64,000 bases of DNA from Calvatia gigantea. Lineage: Eukaryota > Basidiomycota > Agaricomycetes > Agaricales > Lycoperdaceae. The stretch spans positions 4,278,001-4,342,000 of the forward strand of contig JACAAK010000004.1 of assembly GCA_025093985.1 (NCBI GenBank). Reading direction: 5' to 3'. Under the pieces are notes generated by a model. That model was not told where the DNA came from and ran no database searches. It was given only the letters and a program-made list of their open reading frames with translations. Position numbers and translations under genes: made by a program. Of the stretch, positions 16,566 to 31,531 are shown piece by piece (position 1 is the stretch's first letter; every line of letters begins with the position of its first letter).

Positions 16566-16824
16566 TGCATACTCCATGGCATTCTGCTGTGTCTGTAGTT
16601 TCCAGTTCTACTTGCAGCATGAGTGAAGTCCCACACTGGTCCAGAGCAGCTATAACAGGTTTGGGTGGGAGGCACTTTTCCCACTTAGGATGGCAAGGTG
16701 TTGAAGGGGTTTTCTGTGGTGCAGCTTTCAGTTCAGGTGTGGATGAGGATGAATGGTCATCTATTTGGTCTATGGGTAGCACACTGAACCTATTTACACT
16801 TTGCAGTGAGGGTGCACTCTCCAC
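16566..16824 (-). pseudogene. Gypsy-C copy 1 pol, N-terminal fragment
   Basis: Aligned with 28533-28800 of copy 2 (QSVNRFSVLPID..., KPVIAALDQCGTSLMLQVELE). It begins 8 nt after the gag stop without an ATG (GTG in that position) and in a different frame, so it is normally expressed as a gag-pol read-through or frameshift product. It ends before the protease active site. Confidence 0.75.
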
Positions 16825-16832
16825 TTGCTGCT

Positions 16833-17936
16833 CTACAGAAAATCTGCTTCTTCAGCTGCTTGAGCTGAGTCTGCTGCTTCTTTCATATCTTTCTTGGCCA
16901 GGAGTCTCATAAGAAGGTCATCTTCCTCCTCCACAGTCAAGTGGCATATGTCATGTCTAAGTGGACATTCAGCCTTGATATGTCCAATCTTCTTGCAACA
17001 ATAGCAGGTAGGTGGGAGTGGAGCAGGTTTGTGAGAGGCATCTACCTCCATAGGTGCAGGGGTGCTGAGAGACAGTGTGGGCCAAATGGGTGGAGGTGGA
17101 ACAGTAACTAGTGGGAATGGAAGGGAACAGAGGGGTTTAGCTTTTGGAGGTAGCGGGTTGGAGCAGGTGATGGCTTGGAAGGCATTGTTGGCAGCCCTCA
17201 CCTGGTCAATGCATTGAGCATACCAACCTTCTATGTTGTTGTCCCAGGGGCATCCTGAGACCATGGTGGCTACTATGTTCTGGATTGTCAGCTGAAGTCC
17301 ACACTGGAATTTCACAACTATTACCTTCAGGTCAGTGTACCCTGAGTCTGCAATAAGGTTGTGGAAGTTGTCAAGGTAGTCATCGACATTCCAGTTGCTC
17401 TGGTGGTATCCTGTGCCCTCCAGAATATTGACTGCAGCAGCTTCTGCATCCATAGGGAAGAAATGCAGATAGAACTTGGTGGAGAAATCTTCCCAACCAA
17501 GGAAGCAGGTTTGCCCTGGGTGTTGCTCTTCCCAATGCATTACATTCTCAGCCCACTTAGCTGCGTGGCCATTCTTCATGTATGACAATGCCCACAGGAT
17601 CTGGGCATTTTTGTCTTTGAAGTGATCCTTGCACAACTGAAGGTAGATGTGGCAGGAGTTAAGGAATGCATGACCTCTAGAGTGATCTCCATTGAAGTCA
17701 GATGGGGTGGCTACCTTGGCCCAGATGGATGTGAAGTGTGGCTGAGGTATGGGGGTATGGTCAGTGGAAGGTTGTGGAGCATGGGGAGCAGAGGCATTTG
17801 CAGTAGCCACCATACTGATCTGACTTTGTAAGGATGAGAGTGTTTCATATACTCTTAGTTCAGATGCTGTCTGATGATTTATCACCTCCTGCAGGCTGTT
17901 CTACAGCTGTGCGAGTATTTGTTCCAAGAGAGACAT
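16833..17936 (-). pseudogene. Gypsy-C copy 1 gag
   Basis: Likely start ATG at 17936 (MSLLEQILAQL), as in copy 2. Codon 12 is TAG where copy 2 has CAG, after which the frame is open for 350 codons. Capsid-like middle part (residues about 70-290) and one zinc knuckle near the C-terminus, CYCCKKIGHIKAECPLRH. Ends EEADFL. One nonsense mutation only. Confidence 0.85.
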
Positions 17937-18121
17937 GCTCTGTGCTGGCTATAGTTGATCTTGCTGTAGTTGCCCCTGCTGCTGTTGCAGCTGGGGCTAG
18001 TCTGACATGGAGAGTAGGTCAGGCAGGTAGAGATGGGGTCAGCTGGTGGAGGGTGATCAAGAGGAACTCCTTGAAGTTATTTTCAGTGGGCGACCAGGTC
18101 TCTTGTGAGATCTAATTCTTC

Positions 18122-18459
18122 TGTAAGGGCAACCCACAGTCTGAGTGGCTTGGGGACGTGAAGTTCTCATGAGGTGGGTGAGCAGGTAACTGCAGGGGAA
18201 TCCTTAGTTGTATTACAAGTGGCTGTGTAGACTATATACCTGCGGGGGAATCCTTAGAGAATCAGATAAGGGTCCCTTGCAGGTATACAGGTTAATATAT
18301 ACTACATTACTGTCCATTGTCCTATTGTTTCATTATGTATGTAAGTCCATCATTGTCCTTCAGGGTCTCCAGTTGTTACTCATGTCTGTGTGGCTGAGAG
18401 CAGGTGAGAGCATAAGGTTGTGGGACAGTCCAGAGGGACTGTCAGAGGTTGCCCTGACA
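18122..18459 (-). repeat. Gypsy-C copy 1, 5' LTR
   Basis: 338 bp, minus-strand TGTCAGGGCAACC...GCCCTTACA; same length as the 3' LTR of copy 2 at 39211-39548. Confidence 0.9.
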
Positions 18460-19127: not shown

Positions 19128-19187
19128 TTGCCCACTTCATGAGAGCCTCACATTCCTGAGCTGCTCAGACTATGGGTTGCCCTTACA
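19128..19187 (+). repeat. Gypsy-C copy 2, 5' LTR remnant
   Basis: Last 60 bp of the LTR (CCCACTTCATGAGAGCC...GCCCTTACA), compare 39490-39548. The first ~280 bp are missing at the boundary with Gypsy-B copy 2. Confidence 0.8.
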
Positions 19188-19372
19188 GAAGAATTGAATC
19201 TCATAAGAAACTCAGTCACCCACTGGGAACAACTCTAAGGAGTTCCTCTCAAACACCCCCTATCAGCTGACCCCATTTCTATCTGTCTGACCTGGCCCCC
19301 ATGTCAGACCAGCCCTAGCTGCAACAGTAGCAGGGACAACCACAGCAGGTTCAACTGCAGCCAGTGCAGAAT

Positions 19373-19705
19373 ATGTCTCCCCTGAAACAAATACTTGTAC
19401 AACTGCAGGATAGCCTGCAGGAGGTGATAAATTATTAGGCAGCATCCAAACTGAGAGTCTATGAAACACTCTCCTCCTTACAAGGTCAAATTAGCACAGT
19501 GGCTGCTGCAAATGCCCCTGTCCCCCATGCTCCACAACCCTCCGCCAACTACACTCCTGCTCCTGTACCTCAGCTACACCCCACATTCACCTGGGCCAAG
19601 ATAGCTACCCCATCCGACTTTGACAGAGATCACTCCAGAGATTGCGCATTTCTCAACTCTTGCCACATCTACCTTCAGTTGTACAAGGATTAGTTTGAGG
19701 ATGAA
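19373..19705 (+). pseudogene. Gypsy-C copy 2 gag, first part
   Basis: ATG at 19373 (MSPLKQILVQLQDSLQE). Stops occur at codon 24 (TAG after INY) and near 19694 (TAG after LYKD). The frame is cut at 19705 by Gypsy-A and resumes at 27745. The 5-bp ATGAA at 19701-19705 is repeated at 27740-27744. Confidence 0.85.
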
Positions 19706-20327
19706 TGTCACAACCCATACATGCACTCACCCGCTTCACCCACTCTTACCCAGACTATACTTTATATTTTATTTACCATTCGCTCTCACCTGCTCTCCCC
19801 CATCTCCCCTGCTCTCCATTCTTACTATTATGTCTGACGTTAATTTCCGATTATCCTTCTTGTACATTTCTCCAGTCGTCATACCTACTCCCATTTCCCT
19901 TGCAATCCCTTTTACCATTCATATCGTTCCTGTTTCACCTTATTCCTTTTAGCTAGTTGCATTCCCAGTGTTTTTATCTAGTGGCCATACCTGGCCTGCA
20001 CCTGAAGTCATAGTAGTTTCCTTTTGTAGAACCACACTTCCTCACATATATAAACCGTAGCTACTTCACCTGTAATCCTCAGTCTGAAATCTACTTAGCG
20101 ACATGCTACTTCTATTCTACCTCTGTCTCTGTCTCTGTCTCCGCCTCTGACTCTGTCCTTGTCCCTTATTCTGAAGTTAGGACCACTTGTTGGCAGGAGG
20201 GTGCAACACATACGCTGAAGCCACGGTCCTCCCAAGTTCGCCCGCTTCGTCCATCTTCGTCCACATCCACGCATCATCCCGGGTGTCTAGACTCCGGTCA
20301 TCTCACCCATGTGACCCGCACTTAACA
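19706..20327 (+). repeat. Gypsy-A 5' LTR
   Basis: TGTCACAACC...TTAACA, 622 bp. It contains a short CTCTGT hexanucleotide run near 20120-20150 and a possible TATA motif ACATATATAAACC near 20044. Confidence 0.95.
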
Positions 20328-20377
20328 GTATTTCAGACTCCCAACTCCTGCTGTCGATTTCTATTCCTTCACTTACT

Positions 20378-21955
20378 ATGGCTACATTTGTCAGAACTAA
20401 GACTGGCACAACTGTTCATCGGTCCCTTTGCAACAATCCCAAACGAACCCCTTCATCAACCCAATCCACCCCCAGAACTCAGAGATTGAAACGGTCTCAC
20501 CTATCTGTTCCAGGCGACTTCCCACAAAACTCCCCTAACCCCTTCGCAGAGCTGATCTGGGAGGAACTTCCCGAACATAGCTCCAGCCCACCTCAGGGCC
20601 CGAGTAGTGGAAATGGCATAGGCAGCACAGTTCCACCTGGAGATCCTGGCTACCCTGGTGGTGGTGACTATGGTATTAATGATAAAGACAACTATGGCGA
20701 TGACTAGAACGATGGTCTAGAATATGCTGATTACCCTTACCCCAATCCTGATGATGGTGGAGGCGATGGGCCTGGAGGCAATGACGAACCTGAGGAACCA
20801 TCGGATGATGATGACGATGGTGATGATGAAACAAGCACTAGTGAGCCGCACAGCTGTCGGGGACTTGATCGCCCTCTGGCCCACACTATTAGATCCCTCG
20901 CTAATGCCATAGATGATCGTGCCCACTCTCAGCCGCCCCAGCCTCCTCAACCTCCCTGTACTAAGGCCTGCGAACCCGAACCATTCAGCGGTGCCAACCC
21001 TGATGACCTTCCTTGCTTCCTTTTCCAATGTCGACTCTATTTCCGTGCCAACCCTACACAATTCACATCTGATACCACCAAGGTCAACTTCGCCCTCACC
21101 TTCCTTACTGACGTCACTCTTTGCTGGTTTGAAACTGGCATCGACCAGAAAGAGACTCAAGGCATATCCCATGCCTAGTCCACTGACTGGGATGAGTTCA
21201 CCACTGAGCTCAAGACCAACTTCGGTGTAGCCGACCTGAAGGGCGAATCAGCCAAACTCCTGGAGAATCTGAAGATGAAGCATGGTGAGAAGATCACCAC
21301 CTATAACATTGAATTCATGCAGCTCTCATCCCGACTTCGATGGGGCAATGACGTTCTCTGCTACCACTACTACAAAGGCCTCCCTAATTGTCTCCAAGAT
21401 GCCCTCTCTTCTCGCCCCAATGACAAGCCCACCTCGTTCAACGAAATGCGTGAAGCAGCCATCATCCTCGATAATCGCTATTGGGAACATCAACATGAGA
21501 AGACCTGTGTGAAGGAAGCGGCTGAATCGGCGTCCGCTTTTCTCAACAGGAAGTTGGGTAACAACCCTGGACCTTCCTCGAACAAGGCCAGCAGCAACAA
21601 CAACAACAGCAACAACAGCAACAGCAGCAACAACAACAGCAACAGCAACAAGCCCAACCACAGCAGCAGCAAGGGAAACACCTCGAACAAACCCACCAAC
21701 ACTACCCCATCCTCCTCCACACCCGCCAAATCATCCTTCCCCGCTAAACCCAACTTATCTGACAAACTTGGCAAGGATGGCAAGCTGACTACCGAAGAAC
21801 GCAAGTGCTGCCTTGACAACAACCTCTGCCTGTTCTATGGCAATGCCGGCCACAAGGTTAGCGAGTGTAGGAAGAAAGCCACTTCGACTGCAAAGGCTGT
21901 CGCCCGCAAGGCCAAAGTGGTTGGGGAGAGCTCTGAAAAGAGCTTGGAAAAATGA
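20378..21955 (+). pseudogene. Gypsy-A gag
   Basis: 525 codons in one frame from ATG 20378. A Pro/Gly- and Asp/Glu-rich N-terminus is followed by a retrotransposon gag capsid domain (PFSGANPDDLPCFLFQCRLYF onward, roughly residues 205-380, core words CWFE and EFTTEL). An Asn/Ser low-complexity run encoded by AAC/AGC repeats (21590-21670) precedes one zinc knuckle-like motif, CLFYGNAGHKVSEC, with the second Cys replaced by Tyr. Two in-frame stops, TAG 20705-20707 and TAG 21176-21178. The stop overlaps the pol start in ATGA. Gag would form the cytoplasmic particle. Confidence 0.9.
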
Positions 21956-24900
21956 GTGGCGGTCCTCAGGACTCTGCACAGGCTGAGGACCGTGTTGAAC
22001 TCACCTGTGCTACAGAGTGTTTTCGACTCAACGCTTCCACTCTTTCTAACCCCAATTCCCTGCAGCTCTATCTCACTTCCCCTTCTGTTTCTTCATCCAC
22101 TTCATCTAACCTCATCCGCTTCAAGGCTCTTGTTGATAGTGGGTCTACCCATTGCTTTATGGACTCTGACTTTGTACATTCATATGATCTTCCGACCACA
22201 CCCATTCCTCCTATTGAACTTCGTCTCTTTGATGGCTTGTCTAATATGTACATTACTGAACTAGTGAAGCTTCTTGTTACTTTTAACTGTGGTGAATCTA
22301 TGACTCTGGACTTTTACGTCACCTGGCTTGACTCTTCTTGCTCTGTGGTTCTTGGATATAACTGGCTTACCCGCTACAATCTGTTGATTGACTGGGTTCT
22401 GGGCCATATCACTTTCCGACTGCTTCAGCCTGAACTTCCTGCTACTTCTGCTCGCAGTGTGTCCATTCCAGTCGCACCTGCATCCTCTGCAGCATCCGCT
22501 TCAGCCGCCCCATCTGTCACCTCACAGTCTTCACCATCTGCTTCTTCTGCCATTTCTGTTACGGGCATGGTTGATGCAGCTCGTCCATACGTCTCACTGG
22601 TTAATGCCACCACCTTCCTCCATGCCTCTCACCTCCCTGGTTCAGTTCAGTATAGCCTCAATCTCAACAACCCATCTATAACAGCTTCCTCTGCCTCTGT
22701 TGAGGAGCCTCAGGACGACTGGTCCCATATCCTGGAAGAGTACTGTGATTTTGCTGACGTCTTCAGTAAAATGAAGGCTGACAAGCTTGCCCCACATTGG
22801 CCATATGACCTCCAGATCAATCTTGAAGAAGGTGGCCAACCACCAGTTGGTACCATCTATTCCCTATCTCAGGTTGAACTAGAGGCTCTATGTGAATTCA
22901 TTGACAAAAACCTTGCTATCGGATTCATCCACCCCTCCAACTCCCCTCATGGAGCCCCTGTCCTCTTTGTCAAGAAAAAGGATGGTTTGCTCCATTTATG
23001 CATCGATTTCCAAGGTCTCAACTGCATTACCAAGAAGGATCGCTACCCCCTTCCTCTCATATCCGACCTACTTGATTCGCCCCGCAAAGCCCACATCTAT
23101 ACCAAGATTGACCTATGCCATGCTTATCACCTTGTCCACATCACAGAAGGTGATGAATGGAAAACGGCCTTCCGAACCTGCTACAGATCGTTTGAGTGGC
23201 TCATTATGCCTTTCGGCCTTACCAATGCACCTGCCGCCTTCCAGCAGTTCATGAACAACATCTTCAAAGATCTCTTAGATGTCTGCATGACAGTCTATCT
23301 TGATGACATACTCATCTATTCCGATGACATCAGCATACACCACAAGCAAGTCTACAAGGTTCTCAAGTGGCTTAGGCAGAACGGTCTCTACGCCTGCATG
23401 GATAAGTGCGAATTTGAGTCTGACACAGTTGAATACCTTGGTTATGTTCTTTCCCCTGATGGTCTCAAGATGTCTGAAGACAAGGTCAAGATTATCCAGG
23501 ACTGGCCAGAACTGAAGAAGATCAAGGACATACAGTCCTTCTTAGGTTTTGCCAATTTCTATTGTCACTTCATTTATAACTACTCTGACATTGTAGTTCC
23601 TCTCACCTGCCTTACCTGCAAGGGTATTTCTTGGAACTTCAATGATAAATGTCAAGAGGCTTTCCAATCATTGAAGGATGCTTTCACCTCTGCTCCTATC
23701 CTGACCCACTGGATCCCTGATGCTCAAATCATTGTCAAGACAGATGCATCTGACTACACGCTAGCCGCCATCCTCTCTATCGTCACTGAGGATGGTGAAG
23801 TTCACCCCATGGCTTTCCATTTCTGTACATTCACTTCAGCCAAGTCGAACTACAACACATATGACAAGGAACTACTGGCTATCTTTGAAGCCTTTAGGAT
23901 CTGGCAGCATTATCTTGAAGGTGCTCCCCTTCCCATTGACATGGTCACTGATCATAAGAATCTGGAATACTTCTGCACCACTAAAATCCTTACCCGCCAT
24001 CAAGCTTGCTGGTCCAAATTCTTGTTACAGTTCAATCTCACCATCTGCTTTCGCCCCGGCCAACTTGGTATAAAGCCCGACACTTTAACTAGACGATGGG
24101 ACATCTACCCTAAAAGGGGGAATAATGGCTACACTACGGTCAATCCTCACAACTTCTGTCCAGTCTTTACTCATGAACAACTCACAGCCTCCGTCCACGC
24201 TACTTATCTTTATACCCCTTCCCTTTGTGCAGCCATGATCATTGACCTCAATCAGCTGCATTCCGACATCCTTTCATCTCTTCTGCAAGACCCAACTATG
24301 GCTCAACACCTAGCCAAACCTGAAGGATGCTGGATTGTAGATTCATCCAGTTTTCTCCGCCTTGATGACAGGATCTATGTTCCCAATGTTGACAATCTTC
24401 GACTTCATGTTCTACAGTACAAGCATGATCACATCCTTTCTGGACACTTCGGTCAGAACAAGACTCTGGAGTTAGTCTGACGTGATTACACTTGGCCCGA
24501 AATCTGCACAACAGTCAAAGATTTCTGCAAATCCTGCATCACCTGCATGTGCTCTAAGCCACAATGACACTGACCTTATGGAAACCTCAAGCAGCTCCCC
24601 ATTCCTGAATGGCCATGGAACTCTATCTCTATGGACTTCATTGAGAAACTGCCCACATCTTCCGACTACGACACTATCCTTGTTATCGTTGATTGCCTTA
24701 CCAAGCAATCTTTGTTCATTCCCACTCACGACACCATCACCTCAGCCAAACTCGCCCGCCTATTCGTCATTCATGTATTCTTGAAACATGGTATTCCCGA
24801 ACATGTTACATCCGATCGCAGTTCCAAATTTGTTTTGCACTTCTTCCACTTGCTTGGACAAGCACTGGACATGAAGTTACACTTCACCTCTGGGTATCAC

Positions 24901-25695
24901 CCTGAGGGTGACAGACAAACCGAACAGACTAACCAGACTCTCGAGCAATACCTCCGCATCTACTGCAACTACTAGCAGGACAACTGGGCTGAGTTACTGC
25001 CACTAGCTGAGTTTGCCTATAACAATGCTCCTAGTGCCACTACTGGTGTCTCCCCATTCTTCACTAATAAAAGCTATCATCCCAATATCACAGTCTACCC
25101 AGAACGCAACTTGGCGTCCACACACGCATGTCAATTCGTTGTCGACCTCAATGAACTCCACACAGTACTCAAATCTGAGATCAAGCAAGCTCAAGAATGG
25201 TACCAGTCATCCACTGATATCCACCGGACACCTGCACCTAACTTCACAGTTGGGCAAAAGGTCTTCGTTAAGGCACAGTTCTTCCACATGACTCGACTGT
25301 CGAAGAAACTCTTGGAAAAGTATTTGGGTCCTTATGAGATTATCGCTCAACCTGGTTCCATTTCTTATACTCTATGCTTACCTGACTCAATGCATGCCAT
25401 TCACCCAGTATTCCACATTTCGATGCTTGAACCTGCCACACCTAACCCATTTGATGGCCACTCTGACCCGCCTCCTCTGCCCATTGAAGTCGAAGGTGAG
25501 CCGGAGTACAAAATCACCCATATTGTTGACTCGAAGATCGACCATCGACATGCCTACAAGTTATTATACAAGGTCATTTGGTTGGGTTATGAGGATACTG
25601 AAGAAGAGTCTTCTTACTGAATTAGAGCATGCAGCTGAACTTGTGGCAGATTTCCATACAGCTTATCCTACTAAGCCTGGTCTCTTGCATTCTTT
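21952..25695 (+). pseudogene. Gypsy-A pol: protease, RT, RNase H, integrase, chromodomain
   Basis: ATG 21952 overlaps the gag stop. Open for 842 codons to TGA 24478. Order: aspartic protease (VDSGSTHCF, then LGYNWL), RT (FVKKKDG, KIDLCHAYH, FGLTNAPAAFQ, catalytic VYLDDILIYSDD near 23293), RNase H (KTDASDYT, DKELLAIFEA, TDHKNLEYF), integrase zinc finger (HDHILSGHFG..CKSCITC) and catalytic domain (SMDFIEKL, SDRSSKF, E in the DRQTEQTNQTLE helix), GPY/F-like region, and a C-terminal chromodomain (IVDSKIDHRHAYKLLYKVIWLGYED). Further stops: TGA 24565, TGA 24571, TAG 24973. Near 25615 a small shift moves the tail (ELEHAAELVADFH) to another frame, ending at 25699. All stops fit C-to-T changes. Confidence 0.92.
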
Positions 25696-25744
25696 GTAAC
25701 ACTTAATGGACTTATTTTCACTCTTATTCATGGACAGACTTTTT

Positions 25745-25767
25745 TTTATTGGACATTCAACTTTATT
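25745..25767 (-). promoter_or_regulatory. Candidate poly(A) signals of the antisense gene
   Basis: On the minus strand two AATAAA hexamers (complements at 25745-25750 and 25762-25767) lie 60-85 nt downstream of the antisense gene's final stop. Also within reach of the end of sense pol, but in the wrong orientation for it. Confidence 0.5.
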
Positions 25768-25829
25768 AAACATCAAAATCATGAGGAGCGAGGAAAGCCG
25801 TGTTCACCCGCACACCCTCAATCCTCATG

Positions 25830-26980
25830 CTAGCCCCCTTCCACACCCTCTTCCACACCATCTTCTTTTTCTCCACTCTCCTCCACACTTTCTTCACTTC
25901 CTTCCTCTCCACTACTACCATTTCCCTTCTCTTCCTCATCCAAGTCCATCTGCTCACCCCCTTCTCGCACCGGTCACGATGGCCCCTCACCCCAGTCCTC
26001 GATGTCGATGTCACCCGCCTCATCCACATGCCATTGGATATCCGCACCAGGCAGCCATTCTGCAATCTGTCCTGGATGTTCAGTCCTTCCTGTGTGTGGA
26101 GGATCCTGTTGACTCACCACCAGGCCAAGGGCATGGAACTCCTCTCCATTTGCAATGGTCTCCCTCAAGATCGCGGCTGAATTGTGGGTATCATGTTCTT
26201 GGTATCAGGACTTGTGTGCTATCCACGCATTCTGCTGACGCAATAAAATGATGATTTCATTAAGGCATAGGGTGTTCTCTTCAAGTGTGGTCATGAATCG
26301 GTTGAGATGTTGTGCGAGGACATGGGGATTCGAGACCTTGGCGCTTCCACCTGCCAGCTCACACTTTCGCTTGCCCTTGACACAAGTTGCGCATTTGGTG
26401 GTAACCTGGCTAAGGACTTCTCAGCTTAATATTCAACAGGAAGAGGCCGCACTTACTTGGAGTGGGTCTGTCCGGGTTGACACCTGATACCCATGTTGAT
26501 GCAGTGCTTGCAGAGGTTGTCCCCACCCATGGGAACACGCAACTGCAGCTGAACCTCCTCCTCTTCCTCCTTGTCCAACAACCCTGGCACATCATCCTCT
26601 TCATCCGAATCCTCCACCCTTGGCCATTTCCTCAATCGGCTGGGACCTGCTACCAGTTCCTCTTGGGCCTTCCCCTTCCTACGTCGTCATTCCTCCACGT
26701 TCTCCTCCTCTTGCTCCTCCCTTTTCTTACGTGCTGCCTCCTCAAGCCGCTTCTTCCACTTGTCACATTTCTTCGCCTCCTCTCGTTTCCTCTCCTCATC
26801 ACACCTCTTCTTCTCCTCCTCTTCATGCTTCTCCCTATCTGCTCTTTCTTTGGCTTCAGCGGCGGCGAGGTCCGCAATCAACCTGCACTCATCCTCTTTC
26901 TCCTGCTCACACTGAAGTCTGGCGCATTCACGTTTCTCCTCAAGTTCGGCTTGTAGTTGGGCAGCGGTCTTGGGAGGCAT
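25830..26980 (-). pseudogene. Antisense spliced gene of Gypsy-A: coiled coil plus Zn2Cys6-like cluster
   Basis: Minus-strand ATG at 26980. Exon 1 is 26457-26980, intron 26410-26456 (GTAAGT...TTAG, 47 nt), exon 2 is 25830-26409; together 368 codons in frame. Layout: a highly charged coiled coil (residues about 5-100), an acidic patch DSDEEDD, then CKHCINMGIRC, the splice junction in the linker, and CATCVKGKRKC. That gives C-x2-C-x6-C-x13-C-x2-C-x6-C, a Zn2Cys6-like pattern. A leucine-rich helix (TLEENTLCLNEIIILL) follows, then an acidic C-terminus rich in Glu/Gly/Ser. Premature stops are exactly three TGA codons (26687-26689, 26205-26207, 25974-25976), each one change from CGA. Similar coiled-coil/cysteine-cluster proteins annotated as Zn2C6-type are common in Agaricomycetes; role inferred as DNA or RNA binding. 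Function unproven. Confidence 0.75.
26410..26456 (-). other. Predicted intron in the antisense gene
   Basis: Minus-strand donor GTAAGT at 26456-26451 and acceptor TTAG ending at 26410; an AATATTAAGCTGAG stretch could hold the branch point. It contains a stop in the exon frame, and only its removal joins the two cysteine half-clusters in one frame. A nearby CAG acceptor would break the frame. Confidence 0.7.
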
Positions 26981-27117
26981 GGTGGTAGTAGGAGGTCAAG
27001 AGGCAATCAAAGGAAAATTTTTCAAAAGTGTGGATCTTATGCCCACATCAAATTTTTCAACTCCATTTCCCATGATACCTTCATGGCCTCAAGGGCTCAG
27101 CCCTAAGGGGGAAATAC

Positions 27118-27739
27118 TGTCACAACCTGTACATGCGCTCACCTGCTTCACCCGCTCTTACCTGGACTATACTTTATATTTTATTTACCATTCGCTCTCA
27201 CCCACTCTCCCCTGTCTCCCCCACTCTCCATTCTTACTATTATGTCTGACGTTAATTTCCGATTATCCTCCTTGTACATTTCTCCAGTCATCATACCTAC
27301 TCCCATTTCCCTTGCAATCCCTTTTACCATTCATATCGTTCCTGTTTCACCTTATTCCTTTTAGCTAGTTGCATTCCCAGTGTTTTTATCTAGTGGCCAT
27401 ACCTGGCCTGCACCTGAAGTCATAGTAGTTTCCTTTTGTAGAACCATACTTCCTCACATATATAAACCGTAGCTACTTCACCTGTAATCCTCAGTCTGAA
27501 ATCTACTTAGCGACATGCTACTTCTATTCTACCTCTGTCTCTGTCTCTGTCTCCGCCTCTGACTCTGTCCTTGTCCCTTATTCTGAAGTTAGGACCACTT
27601 GTTGGCAGGAGGGTGCAACACATACGCTGAAGCCATGGTCCTCCCGAGTTCGCCCGCTTCGTCCATCTTCGTCCACATCCACGCATCATCCCAGGTGTCT
27701 AGACTCCGGTCGTCTCACCCATGTGACCTGCACTTAACA
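27118..27739 (+). repeat. Gypsy-A 3' LTR
   Basis: 622 bp, differs from the 5' LTR at about 21 positions, all transitions, no gaps. Followed by the ATGAA target duplication at 27740-27744. Confidence 0.95.
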
Positions 27740-27744
27740 ATGAA

Positions 27745-28524
27745 GCCCAGATTCTATGGGTGTTGTTGTATATGAAAAGCAGCTGAGTGGCCAAGTAGGC
27801 CAAGAACATAATGCATTGGGAAGAGCAACACCCAGGGCAAACCCAATTCCTTGACTGAAAGGATTTTTCCATGGAGTTCCACAAGGACTTCTTTCCTGTG
27901 GACATGGAAGCTGCTACAGTCAACATCTTGGAAGGCACAGGGTACCACCAGGGCAACTGGAGTGTCGATGACTATCTCGATGACTTCTGCAACCTCATTT
28001 CACACTCAGAGTACACTGATCTAAAGGTGGTAGTTGTGAAATTCCAGCAAGGACTTCAGCTGACAATCTAGAATGTGATAGCCACCATAATCTCAGAATG
28101 CCCCTGGGACAATGACATAGAAGGTTGGTATGCTGCAGCCCAATGCATTGAACAGGTGAGAGCTGCCAATAATGCCTTCCAAGCCACTATCTGCTCTGAC
28201 CTGACATTCTTGAAAGCCAAACCCCTCTGTTCCCTCCCACTTCCACTGGTCACTGCTCCACCTCCACCCATTCAACCCACACCATCTCCCAGCACTCCTA
28301 CACCCATGGAGGTAGACACCTCTTGCCAACCTGCTCCACTCCCACCCACCTACTACCATTGTAAGAAGGTTGGGCACATTAAATCTGAATGCCCTTTCAG
28401 ACATGATGTCTGCCACCTGACTATAGAGGAGGAAGATGACCTCCTAATGAGACTCCTAGCCAAGAAGGATGTGAGAGAAGCAGCAGACTCAGCTCAAGCA
28501 GCTGAGGAAGTGGATTTTCTGTAG
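27745..28524 (+). pseudogene. Gypsy-C copy 2 gag, second part
   Basis: Continues gag after Gypsy-A (AQILWVLLYMKS, compare AQILWALSYMKN in copy 1). Several in-frame stops occur before 27871 and one TAG near 28070 (LTI-stop-NVIA). The tail carries the zinc knuckle, here YHCKKVGHIKSECPFRH with the first Cys replaced by Tyr, and ends EEVDFL at TAG 28522-28524. Confidence 0.85.
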
Positions 28525-28532
28525 AACAGCAA

Positions 28533-31531
28533 GTGGAATGTGCACCCTTGCTACAAAGTGTAAATAGATTCAGTGTGCTACCAATAGATGAAATAGACAA
28601 CTCTTTGCTTTCACCCATACCTGAACCAAAAGCCACACCACAGAAAACCCCTTCAATACCTCACCATCCTAAATGGGAAAAATGCCTGTCACTCAAACCT
28701 GTCATAGCCATGCTTGACCAACATGGGACCTCACTTATGCTACAAGTGGAACTAGAGACTACAGACACAGCAGAATGCCATAGTGTATGTGCTCTCATGG
28801 ACAGCTGTGCAACCAGCTCTTTTATTGACTGAGACTACATGCAGACCAACAAACTCAACACCCATACACTCTCTCACCTACTTGCAGTCTACAATGTTGA
28901 TGGATTGGAAAATGAGGCTGGTCAGATAATGGAAGTCATAGACATCATCCTTTACTACTGCAACCACTCAGAATGCTTCCTGCTCACAGTTACTGGACTT
29001 GGCCACCAAGACTTGCTTCTTGGATATACTTGGCTCAAACTACACAACCCTGACATCAACTGGCAGACCAGTGAAGTCCAAATGTCCCAATGCCCATCCA
29101 AGTATAAAGAGTGCAAGGTCAAAGCTAAAGCTGAGGCCCATACCCACCATCTCCAAACCTGCTGCATCTGTGCCTGCACTCTGGGCTCCTTCCCTGCCTG
29201 TGTAGAAGAAGTGGAAGAAGTGGATGATTCACCTGCCCTGCCATCTGCTCCCACTGATCTCTATGACGACAATGACTGAATCTTTGCTATCAATCTCCTC
29301 CCATGTCCAGGAGAAATTCATACAATGGGTACCATGTCCCAATAGCTGGCTGAGGCCTTCCACCACAACTCCCAGTCACCTGACTCACCCACTGGGTTTA
29401 GGGAAATCATTCTCTTCTATCTTCATGACTTCAAAGCCATATTCACCAAGGAGTCCTTCAACACACTGCCAGAGCATTGACCATAGGACCACATAGTTGA
29501 GCTCATCCCAGACACTGATCTGAAGGGCTGTAAGGTATATCCACTCTCACCCACTGAGCAGTTGCAGTTGGACGACTTCATCCAGGAAAACCTCTCATCT
29601 GATCGCATCTGCCCCTCCAAATCCCCCATGGCCTTGCCTGTCTTCTTCATCAAGAAGAAGGATGGATCCCTCTGTCTCATCCAGAACTACCATGCTCTCA
29701 ACACCATTACAGTGAAGAACAAGTACCCTCTCCTGCTCATATCTAAACTCATTGCACAGCTTCATGGAGCCAAGTACTTTACTAAATTGGATGTTCAATG
29801 GGGATTCAACAATGTGCAGATTAAACTGGGTGATGAGTAGAAGGCTGCATTCCAGATGAATCACAGATTATTTAAGCTGCTGGTCATGTTCTTTGGCCTC
29901 ACCAATAGCCCAGCCACCTTCCAAACCATGATAAACAATATTTTCCATGAGCTCATCATGGAGGGCATTGTTGTGGTATATATGGACAACATACTGATCT
30001 TCATGAAGATGATTGAAAAGCATCAAAAGGTCACCCACCAGGTCTTGCAAATTCTTGAATGGCACTAGCTTTTCCTTAAACCTGAAAAGTGTGAGTTCGA
30101 GAAGACCCACATCAAGTATCTTGGCCTCATCATATTGGAGAACAGTGTAGAGATGGACCTGGTCAAGGTCACAGGGGTATGAGAATGGCCTGCTCTGGCC
30201 AATGTGGGGGAAACACAAGCATTCCTGAGGTTTGTCAACTTCTACCACTAGTTCATCTGTGACTTCTCCCATATAGCCCGCCCCCTCTTCGACCTCACTA
30301 AGGCAGATACCAAGTGGAAATGGGGTATTGTGGAAGAAATGGCTTTCCAAGCACTTAAGGACACAGTTACCTCCTCCCCAGTTCTCCTCTCACTCCATGA
30401 CTCTGCTCCCTTCTGCATCGAAGCAGACAGCTCAGACTCTGCAATGGATGTGGTTCTCTCTTAGAAGGTAGCAGACTCGGACCAGTGGCATCCAGTGGCA
30501 TTCTACTTGAAATCCCTCTCTGCAGTTGAACAAAATTATGAGATCCACAACAAGAAAATGCTGGCAATCATCTGTGCACTAGAAGAATGGAGACACTTCC
30601 TCAAAGGTGCATGCTACCAAATTGAGATCTGGATAGACCATAAAAACCTAGAGTACTTTATGTCCACCAAGAAACTCAACTGTTGCCAAGCCCACTGGTC
30701 TCTTGTACTCTCCCACTTTGATTTCCACTTGTACCATTATCTCAGCTGAACTATGGGGAAACCCAATGCACTGTCCCATAGAGCCAACCATGGCACAGGA
30801 GCCCACAACAATGAGAACATCACCCGCCTTTCTAACAGACTCTTTGCCATTTGTGTACTCAAAGGGATTTTGATGGAAGGAGAGGAGCAGCTCCTGTTGA
30901 AGGATATCCACTCTGGAAACTGCATGGGTAAACAAGAGGAGACAGTTACTAAAGCTGCACAGGAACTCAAGCAGTCATCCACCAAGACTATGAGGAGTGC
31001 AGAATGGACAGAGCAGGATGGTCTACTCCTATTCCAAGGGAAGATCTATGTCCCAATAGGCTCTGATCTTAGACAGAGGATAGTAGCTCTCCACTATGAA
31101 ATGAAGATTGCCAGACATGCTAGGCAATGGAAAATGCTAGAACTCATCTTCCATAGCTACTGGTAGCCCTAGATGGCTTGATACATTGGTCAGTATGTCT
31201 CCACCTGTAATCTCTACATGTGTACCAAGCCTATCTGCTGTTCCCCACAAGGAGAACTCCACCCACTCCCCATCCCTGAAGCCCACTGGGACACGCTCAG
31301 TGTAGATTTTGTGGTCGAACTCCTGGAATCCACAGAGTATGACACTGTCATGACAGTAGTGGACTCTGTTTCTAAATGAGCCTACTTCATCCCTACCCAC
31401 ACCACTGTCTCAGCTGAAGGTGCAGTATGGCTCTTCCTCCACAATGTCTGGAAACTCCATGGACTTCCCAATGCTGTTGTTTTGGACTGCAGACCACAGT
31501 TCATTGCTGCATTTATGAAAGAGCTTTACTA
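28533..31531 (+). pseudogene. Gypsy-C copy 2 pol, protease to integrase core
   Basis: Shifted frame relative to gag, no ATG. Protease MDSCATSSFID near 28797 and LGYTWLKLHNP near 29020; RT from about 29560 (VFFIKKKDGS, KLDVQWGFNN, FGLTNSPATFQ). The catalytic box near 29976-29990 reads VYMDNIL, the second Asp of YMDD having become Asn. RNase H near 30410-30700 (EADSSDSAM, NKKMLAIICALEEW, DHKNLEYF). Integrase zinc finger and core to RPQFIAAFMKEL at 31525, where Copia-L interrupts. Many stops and frameshifts, more decayed than Gypsy-A. The Asp-to-Asn change alone would abolish activity. Confidence 0.88.

Follow-up and report, generated by a model that had tools for sequence, protein, structure and literature searches.

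A spliced antisense gene with a zinc-cluster-like domain between pol and the 3' LTR of Ty3/gypsy elements in Calvatia gigantea

Antisense accessory genes are already known in plant elements and in the Boty element of Botrytis, and the Boty antisense gene, brtn, was reportedly described by Zhao et al. in 2011. By analogy, the best-known working parallel to the gene considered here can be taken to be HBZ of HTLV, whose spliced transcript originates in the 3' LTR. Passages of PMC3736048 describe the control of 5' LTR activity by HBZ. For plant Ty3/gypsy elements, antisense open reading frames located between pol and the 3' LTR (aORF-3R) are described in passages of PMC11963269 and PMC7264820, with Grande gene23, RIRE2, PvRetro13 and Retand TRP28 as examples; according to the same passages (PMC11963269, PMC7264820), these frames occur in most copies and a nuclear or DNA-binding regulator has been proposed. 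Boty, found in Botrytis and Sclerotinia, is a fungal LTR element with brtn as an extra antisense gene (passages of PMC7264820 and PMC8365987), and its gag-pol is reported in a passage of PMC4227169 to contain a CHROMO domain. Finally, a passage of PMC5735166 states that VANC proteins and their target DNA diverge between related VANDAL families.

The gene described here lies in a 64,000-nucleotide stretch of Calvatia gigantea DNA (the window) taken from a 46-Mb genome assembled in 77 contigs. It resembles the plant aORF-3R genes, as presented in the passages cited above, in its Ty3/gypsy context, its antisense strand, its position between pol and the 3' LTR and its presence in most copies, and it differs from them in its fungal host, in a six-cysteine cluster that is split by an intron and in its product of 371-372 aa. 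Retand is a non-chromovirus according to a passage of PMC11963269, whereas a chromodomain is found here, and PF04195, the family of Retand TRP28, was absent, as were bZIP families, from Pfam scans of the antisense proteins of the two element families, A and B, described below (E <= 1). With brtn of Boty the gene shares its antisense placement in a fungal LTR element, although the host of Boty is an ascomycete. Like the HTLV regulators HBZ and APH, it is encoded on the antisense strand toward the 3' end of its LTR element; HBZ is a bZIP retroviral protein, unlike the product found here, and no sequence relation is claimed. The likeness to VANC, which belongs to a plant DNA transposon, lies in the divergence of a mobile-element protein and its target DNA and is not sequence-based. 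Open-licence literature yielded no zinc cluster in connection with an LTR retrotransposon in Agaricomycetes, and the papers returned on Zn2Cys6 proteins, retrotransposons and antisense genes appear to be unrelated. As far as the literature searched shows, the zinc-cluster-like domain, the intron splitting that domain and the conservation in two families with matched LTR divergence are new in a fungal chromovirus; to the plant genes and the one ascomycete gene known in antisense orientation between pol and the 3' LTR, this case adds a zinc-cluster-like domain split by an intron.

The Ty3/gypsy element that carries the gene occupies window positions 19706-27739. Its LTRs form a direct repeat on the plus strand (5' LTR, 19706-20327; 3' LTR, 27118-27739) and are flanked by equal 5-bp copies of a target-site duplication, ATGAA, at 19701-19705 and 27740-27744. 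The LTR pair is 96.6% identical, and all 21 of its differences are transitions. A gag remnant (Retrotrans_gag) is found on the plus strand at 21179-21955, with the gag frames further upstream broken, and is followed on the same strand by pol regions matching the Pfam families RVP_2, RVT_1 and RT_RNaseH (protease, reverse transcriptase and RNase H, 21937-24480) and SH3_Tf2-1 (integrase C-terminal region, the 3' part of pol, 24976-25620). The chromodomain falls under the Pfam cut-off in the window copy and over it in copy L012, where a single 1257-codon pol includes RVT_1, RNase H, the integrase core (rve) and Chromo (31.2 bits against a cut-off of 25.1). Judged on copy L012, with its order of reverse transcriptase, RNase H and integrase and its C-terminal chromodomain, the element lineage is a chromovirus. 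The window element is itself flanked by inverted arms (16568-17614 and 27737-28789, 79-86% complementary), and it therefore sits between two opposite-oriented copies of another repeat; a further inverted arm pair (17620-18178 and 19131-19695, 81-82%) lies just to its left.

The gene is indeed present on the minus strand, in the interval that separates pol from the 3' LTR, with the exons and intron given in the preliminary description. Exon 1 (26457-26980, minus strand) begins with an ATG at 26980, the 47-nt phase 2 intron (26410-26456, minus strand) reads GTAAGT...CTTAG, and exon 2 (25818-26409, minus strand) consists of a coding part at 25821-26409 with the natural TGA directly after it. Once the intron is removed the exons do join in frame, as 368 codons in the window with the cysteine pattern C-x2-C-x6-C-x13-C-x2-C-x6-C, made up of a first half, CKHCINMGIRC (codons 157-167, 26480-26512, minus strand), and a second half, CATCVKGKRKC (codons 181-191, 26361-26393, minus strand). 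The length of 368 codons holds for the frame in the window and not for the full product, which has 371 aa, the frame running on past a TAG. The view that three TGA codons are the only defects also needs correction. Four nonsense codons are found in the window copy: TGA at codons 98, 243 and 320 (first bases at 26689, 26207 and 25976) and the TAG at the end of the 368-codon frame (first base at 25832), which is CAG in the stop-free copy L010 and hence a fourth nonsense change. All three TGA codons correspond to CGA in L010, in agreement with the CpG origin proposed for them. The two minus-strand AATAAA signals noted previously lie downstream of the gene (25745-25750 and 25762-25767), and family B likewise has one AATAAA 3' of its antisense gene. 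We regard the antisense gene as almost certainly real.

DNA of the antisense gene matched 42 places in its own genome, some of which are pieces of one copy, and 33 loci of this family (family A) were aligned, among them the window copy itself (L009) and the near-twins L017 and L018. The intron ends are GT...AG in 34 of 34 family A rows (the 33 loci and the window itself). Three of the 33 loci (L010, L011 and L022) are free of stops and frameshifts, seven contain frameshifts and three contain large deletions, a locus being counted once where both are present; one subfamily shares in-frame gaps, of 12 and 21 nt. In 31 copies, 148 nonsense codons could be codon-aligned, of which 117 are CGA to TGA changes, and C-to-T differences relative to the youngest-looking copy amount to 0.305 at CpG sites and 0.026-0.063 elsewhere. 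LTR pairs could be measured in 13 of 20 loci, six of which have equal 5-bp flanks, and 345 of the 350 differences within these 13 pairs are transitions. The bias toward CGA to TGA, the excess of C-to-T change at CpG sites and the predominance of transitions together indicate that the stops are the ordinary post-insertion decay of CpG sites. Together with the zinc-cluster-like domain and the intron that splits it, the presence of many copies of different ages in one genome makes the function of the gene testable. The possibility that the element had recently captured a host gene was considered and rejected, as no separate host paralogue was found: all 77 own-genome matches to a cysteine-domain query (E <= 1 in a loose exon-wise search) lie, as read from the list, at family A places. 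L017 and L018, found on C69 (a contig of 11 kb) and on C6, encode the same antisense protein and are perhaps a duplicated or redundant piece of the assembly.

A protein search revealed 20 more places with 28-39% identity over exon 1, which form a second family, B, whose DNA matched 42 places in the same genome. In 14 of the 14 B loci that were aligned, a 47-nt GTAAGT...CTAG intron is found in the same phase as in A. Four of the 14 (L045, L049, L052 and L053) are full-length without stops or frameshifts, and the fragment L042 is stop-free. BLASTP aligns the A and B products at E = 2e-10 over both the cysteine region and the segment that follows it, with the six cysteines spaced identically as C-x2-C-x6-C-x13-C-x2-C-x6-C. 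The cysteines of the first half are conserved in 30-32 of the 32 rows of A and in 13-14 of the 14 rows of B, and those of the second half in 26-31 and in 14 rows, respectively. On these sequence comparisons we judge the antisense gene to be homologous between A and B, with its position and its intron kept.

Depletion of amino-acid changes was observed in both families. Among non-CpG differences from L010 in family A, such changes are depleted to 0.37 for transversions (p = 1.4e-4) and 0.70 for transitions (p = 1.2e-3), and the corresponding non-CpG values in family B are 0.45 (p = 0.016) and 0.71 (p = 0.037). CpG changes are not depleted (synonymous share of 0.33 against a possible 0.32, shared changes), as expected of decay. 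With every CpG site dropped, the N/S ratio in the predicted frame is 0.36-0.50 in all six of six hand-chosen pairs (p from 1.6e-9 to 5.7e-3), and stop-free B copies compared pairwise give dN/dS values of 0.25-0.49. Stop-free copies exist in both A (3/33) and B (4/14), and the antisense gene is under purifying selection in its predicted frame. Between A and B, the antisense gene has a dN of 0.80 at saturated dS, compared with 0.22 for the gag part, 0.11 for protease, reverse transcriptase and RNase H and 0.06 for integrase (with dS of 1.0-1.5); in terms of identity, the antisense protein is at ~31% and integrase at ~90%. The antisense protein is constrained and yet the fastest-changing protein of the element. 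The LTRs of A and B align over a block of ~88 bp, containing the polypurine tract and the LTR edge, and a block of ~101 bp further in, and no more. The antisense protein and the LTR have both diverged far more than integrase between the two families.

The gene was proposed to be an accessory gene of the element, and its linkage to pol bears this out. An integrase query gave 126 scored matches out of 1172 first-look candidates. Of these, 40 at <=37% identity belong to other families and were left out, and 11 of the 86 matches at >=71% identity stop short of the end of pol, leaving 75 A/B-type pol 3' ends for examination. An antisense match adjoins 73 of the 75, convergent and close, of A-type at 38 and of B-type at 35. 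The distance from pol to the antisense gene is 136-146 bp in A, with two exceptions at 213 and 736 bp, and 64-77 bp in B, with one exception at 140 bp. Coded on the strand opposite to gag-pol, located between pol and the 3' LTR and present in most copies (73/75), the gene matches the aORF-3R genes in layout. The two pol ends with no antisense match are C10:318050 and C9:568565, and at C10:318050 a reverse-oriented A-type LTR cuts the sequence just before the antisense gene. The locus L057 (G000:C10:314800-318100) has a young-looking pol end and is missing its antisense gene because of the adjoining A-type LTR in the opposite direction. At three loci of other gypsy elements (L058-L060, taken from the 40 low-identity matches, in stretches that may stop short of a 3' LTR), no paired cysteine motif was found in antisense.

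The product of 371-372 aa reads, from its composition, as a series of distinct regions. The N-terminal third is rich in charged residues (72% in A, 61% in B) and hydrophobics are scarce. The stretch formerly called a coiled coil is instead highly charged, with 72% D/E/K/R, 9% LIVMF and no heptad peak, and it reads as a charged helix more than as a coiled coil. Both families have basic patches that run into acid residues (KRPRVEDSDEE and KRKRVDEESD), and we take them to be nuclear-signal-like. The leucine-rich helix and the acidic tail of the preliminary description were recovered, the former as a stretch after the cysteines with 30-32% LIVMF and a heptad-like pattern, and the latter with 38-44% D/E in both families, which is presumably activation-domain-like.

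The cysteine cluster is located in the middle of the protein (residues 157-191). Its six cysteines are arranged, as in Zn2Cys6 domains, in two C-x2-C-x6-C halves, which are separated by a 13-residue linker in both A and B, and the half with the basic loop stands second, not first. In the natural order, the profile check proposed earlier stayed below the Pfam Zn_clus (PF00172) cut-off of 21 bits: full-length A scored 10.2 bits and cut-out pieces 13.6-17.5 bits, with one half matched, and full-length B matched no Pfam family. When the halves were swapped, three constructs scored 21.1, 22.0 and 20.9 bits; with a 7-residue linker, the swapped order scored 20.7 and 19.7 bits versus 14.5 and 16.1 bits for the natural order, and none of six shuffles with the cysteines fixed matched Zn_clus. 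A search of PDB with swapped A returned five chains at E <= 10, all of which we take to be Zn2Cys6 factors, with PUT3 as the best (E = 0.042 and 0.076); the same search returned nothing for swapped B or for natural-order A. As the swapped order scores higher, each half appears to resemble the opposite half of a Zn2Cys6 domain, and with moderate confidence we suggest that the cluster is a circularly permuted Zn2Cys6, which we do not assign as a member of that family. Like Zn2Cys6 factors (PF00172, for example PUT3), the protein has two C-x2-C-x6-C halves, one K/R-rich loop, a pairing-type helix after them and an acidic tail. It is unlike them in the 13-residue linker and in the mid-protein position, apparently swapped halves and sub-cut-off natural-order score, and for these last three reasons the original wording, the build of a fungal Zn2Cys6 regulator, does not hold as it was put.

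Upstream of the gene, a TATA-like site, CATAAG in the window copy, is found ~60 nt before the ATG (27036-27041, minus strand) and may act in a promoter. Among the A rows listed, TATAAG stands 60 nt before the ATG in eight of ten and CATAAG in the other two; in B most listed rows lack the TATA-like site and read CATGTAAAT at this position, with CATATAAAT in L046 and L042. Between this site and the 3' LTR, a block conserved in A and B (window 27081-27119, assigned to neither strand) combines a CpG-centred palindromic stretch, the polypurine tract and the LTR edge, and is a candidate cis element. The block is near-identical in the two families (window 27081-27119; L012 7559-7639; L045), with palindromic parts CCTCGAGG and AGGGC-n3-GCCCT, and may serve plus-strand priming, an antisense promoter or binding. 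CCCGC repeats at the LTR edge were also considered as a target. They occur in the A rows and in four of six B loci and are missing in L042 and L044, which leaves them a weak lead at most. The 3' LTR starts of L042 and L044 are built differently, without the CCCGC repeats, which suggests LTR sub-types within B.

The reading that we favour, and hold to be fairly probable, is that a chromodomain Ty3/gypsy lineage carries this as an accessory gene, whose product would be a nuclear, DNA-binding zinc-cluster protein that regulates the element itself; the regulatory role is our inference. Antisense to gag-pol, transcription would begin at a point lying between the ATG and the polypurine tract, and the transcript would be spliced once and end in the short gap before pol. 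The predicted 371-residue product, with its charged N-terminal helix, nuclear-signal-like basic patch, six-cysteine cluster, leucine-rich and probably pairing helix and acidic tail, would enter the nucleus, where it would bind, as a dimer and through the zinc cluster, DNA of its own family, either in the LTR or in the block next to the polypurine tract. Protein bound in this way would tune the transcription or the silencing of the element, in one direction or the other.

Other explanations were weighed against this one. Chance opening of the frame, or a gene coded in sense and read from the wrong side, is scarcely credible. Sense frame 1 does show some N/S depletion (0.48-0.59 in the six pairs, and in the pair L049-L053 marginally stronger than the predicted frame, 0.48 versus 0.49), and L012 has sense ORFs of 157-180 aa. 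However, 5-7 stops interrupt sense frame 1 in every one of the seven stop-free copies, and comparison of the A frames with B DNA gave matches from the two antisense exon frames only, with none of the three sense frames of A matching B at the protein level. As sense frame 1 has stops in every stop-free copy and no match between A and B, its depletion is read as a shadow, and the chance or sense-coded frame was rejected as far as sequence can show. A function of the antisense RNA over the protein, in which double-stranded RNA would self-limit copy number and coding would be secondary, fits the layout convergent with pol, and antisense RNAs of LTR elements can act so according to a passage of PMC7264820. 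We nevertheless hold it to be quite improbable, as RNA pairing alone needs neither the depletion of amino-acid changes nor the frame, splice phase and cysteine spacing that are kept between A and B.

Two further alternatives retain a protein and change what it does. Action on the side of RNA or the particle (as a nucleocapsid helper, in nuclear export or in packaging) rather than on DNA would suit a Cys-rich protein with very basic and acidic stretches, as these also occur in RNA-binding accessory proteins, and plant antisense accessory proteins are likened to Rev/Tat in a passage of PMC7264820; we think it unlikely, because the arrangement of cysteines differs from a CCHC knuckle and the best, though weak, family matches are to Zn2Cys6 transcription factors. 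Unlikely, too, is a VANC-like anti-silencing protein that would bind family-specific motifs and remove or block CpG methylation on its own copies, with protein and target diverging together. CpG C-to-T decay (0.305 versus 0.026-0.063) and the 345 of 350 transitions in LTR pairs are consistent with host methylation, and the antisense protein and the LTR are the most diverged parts of the element, much as VANC proteins and their targets diverge in a passage of PMC5735166. VANC belongs, however, to DNA transposons, and fast divergence would also fit an ordinary regulator of transcription, a partner of the capsid or a protein that antagonises host factors. In its most specific form, which we offer as a doubtful conjecture, a circularly permuted zinc-cluster protein would recognise its own LTR or the polypurine-tract block and counter silencing by CpG methylation, with protein and target re-diversifying together while pol stays nearly constant. 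If fungal retroelements do control their own transcription or silencing, this would explain why the antisense protein changes fastest in an element that is otherwise conserved.

Beyond this genome, no homologue of the antisense protein was found among 5.8 billion proteins or in viral contigs. Among the best 120 of 7978 matches, relatives of pol are found at 84-88% in Leucocoprinus birnbaumii and Agaricus bisporus and at 76-80% in Pleurotus, Coprinellus and Trametes, and the element lineage is therefore widespread in mushrooms. The lack of a protein match for the antisense product could reflect rapid divergence, an intron that gene callers overlooked, or absence of the gene. A scan of genome contigs yielded two distant pol relatives, at 44% and 54%, and at one distant relative, L061, the paired cysteine motif was not found in antisense. 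One protein in these searches (P0068), assigned to a 'Chlamydiales bacterium' MAG, is a fungal-type chromovirus pol (79%), and the MAG contig is thus probably contamination.
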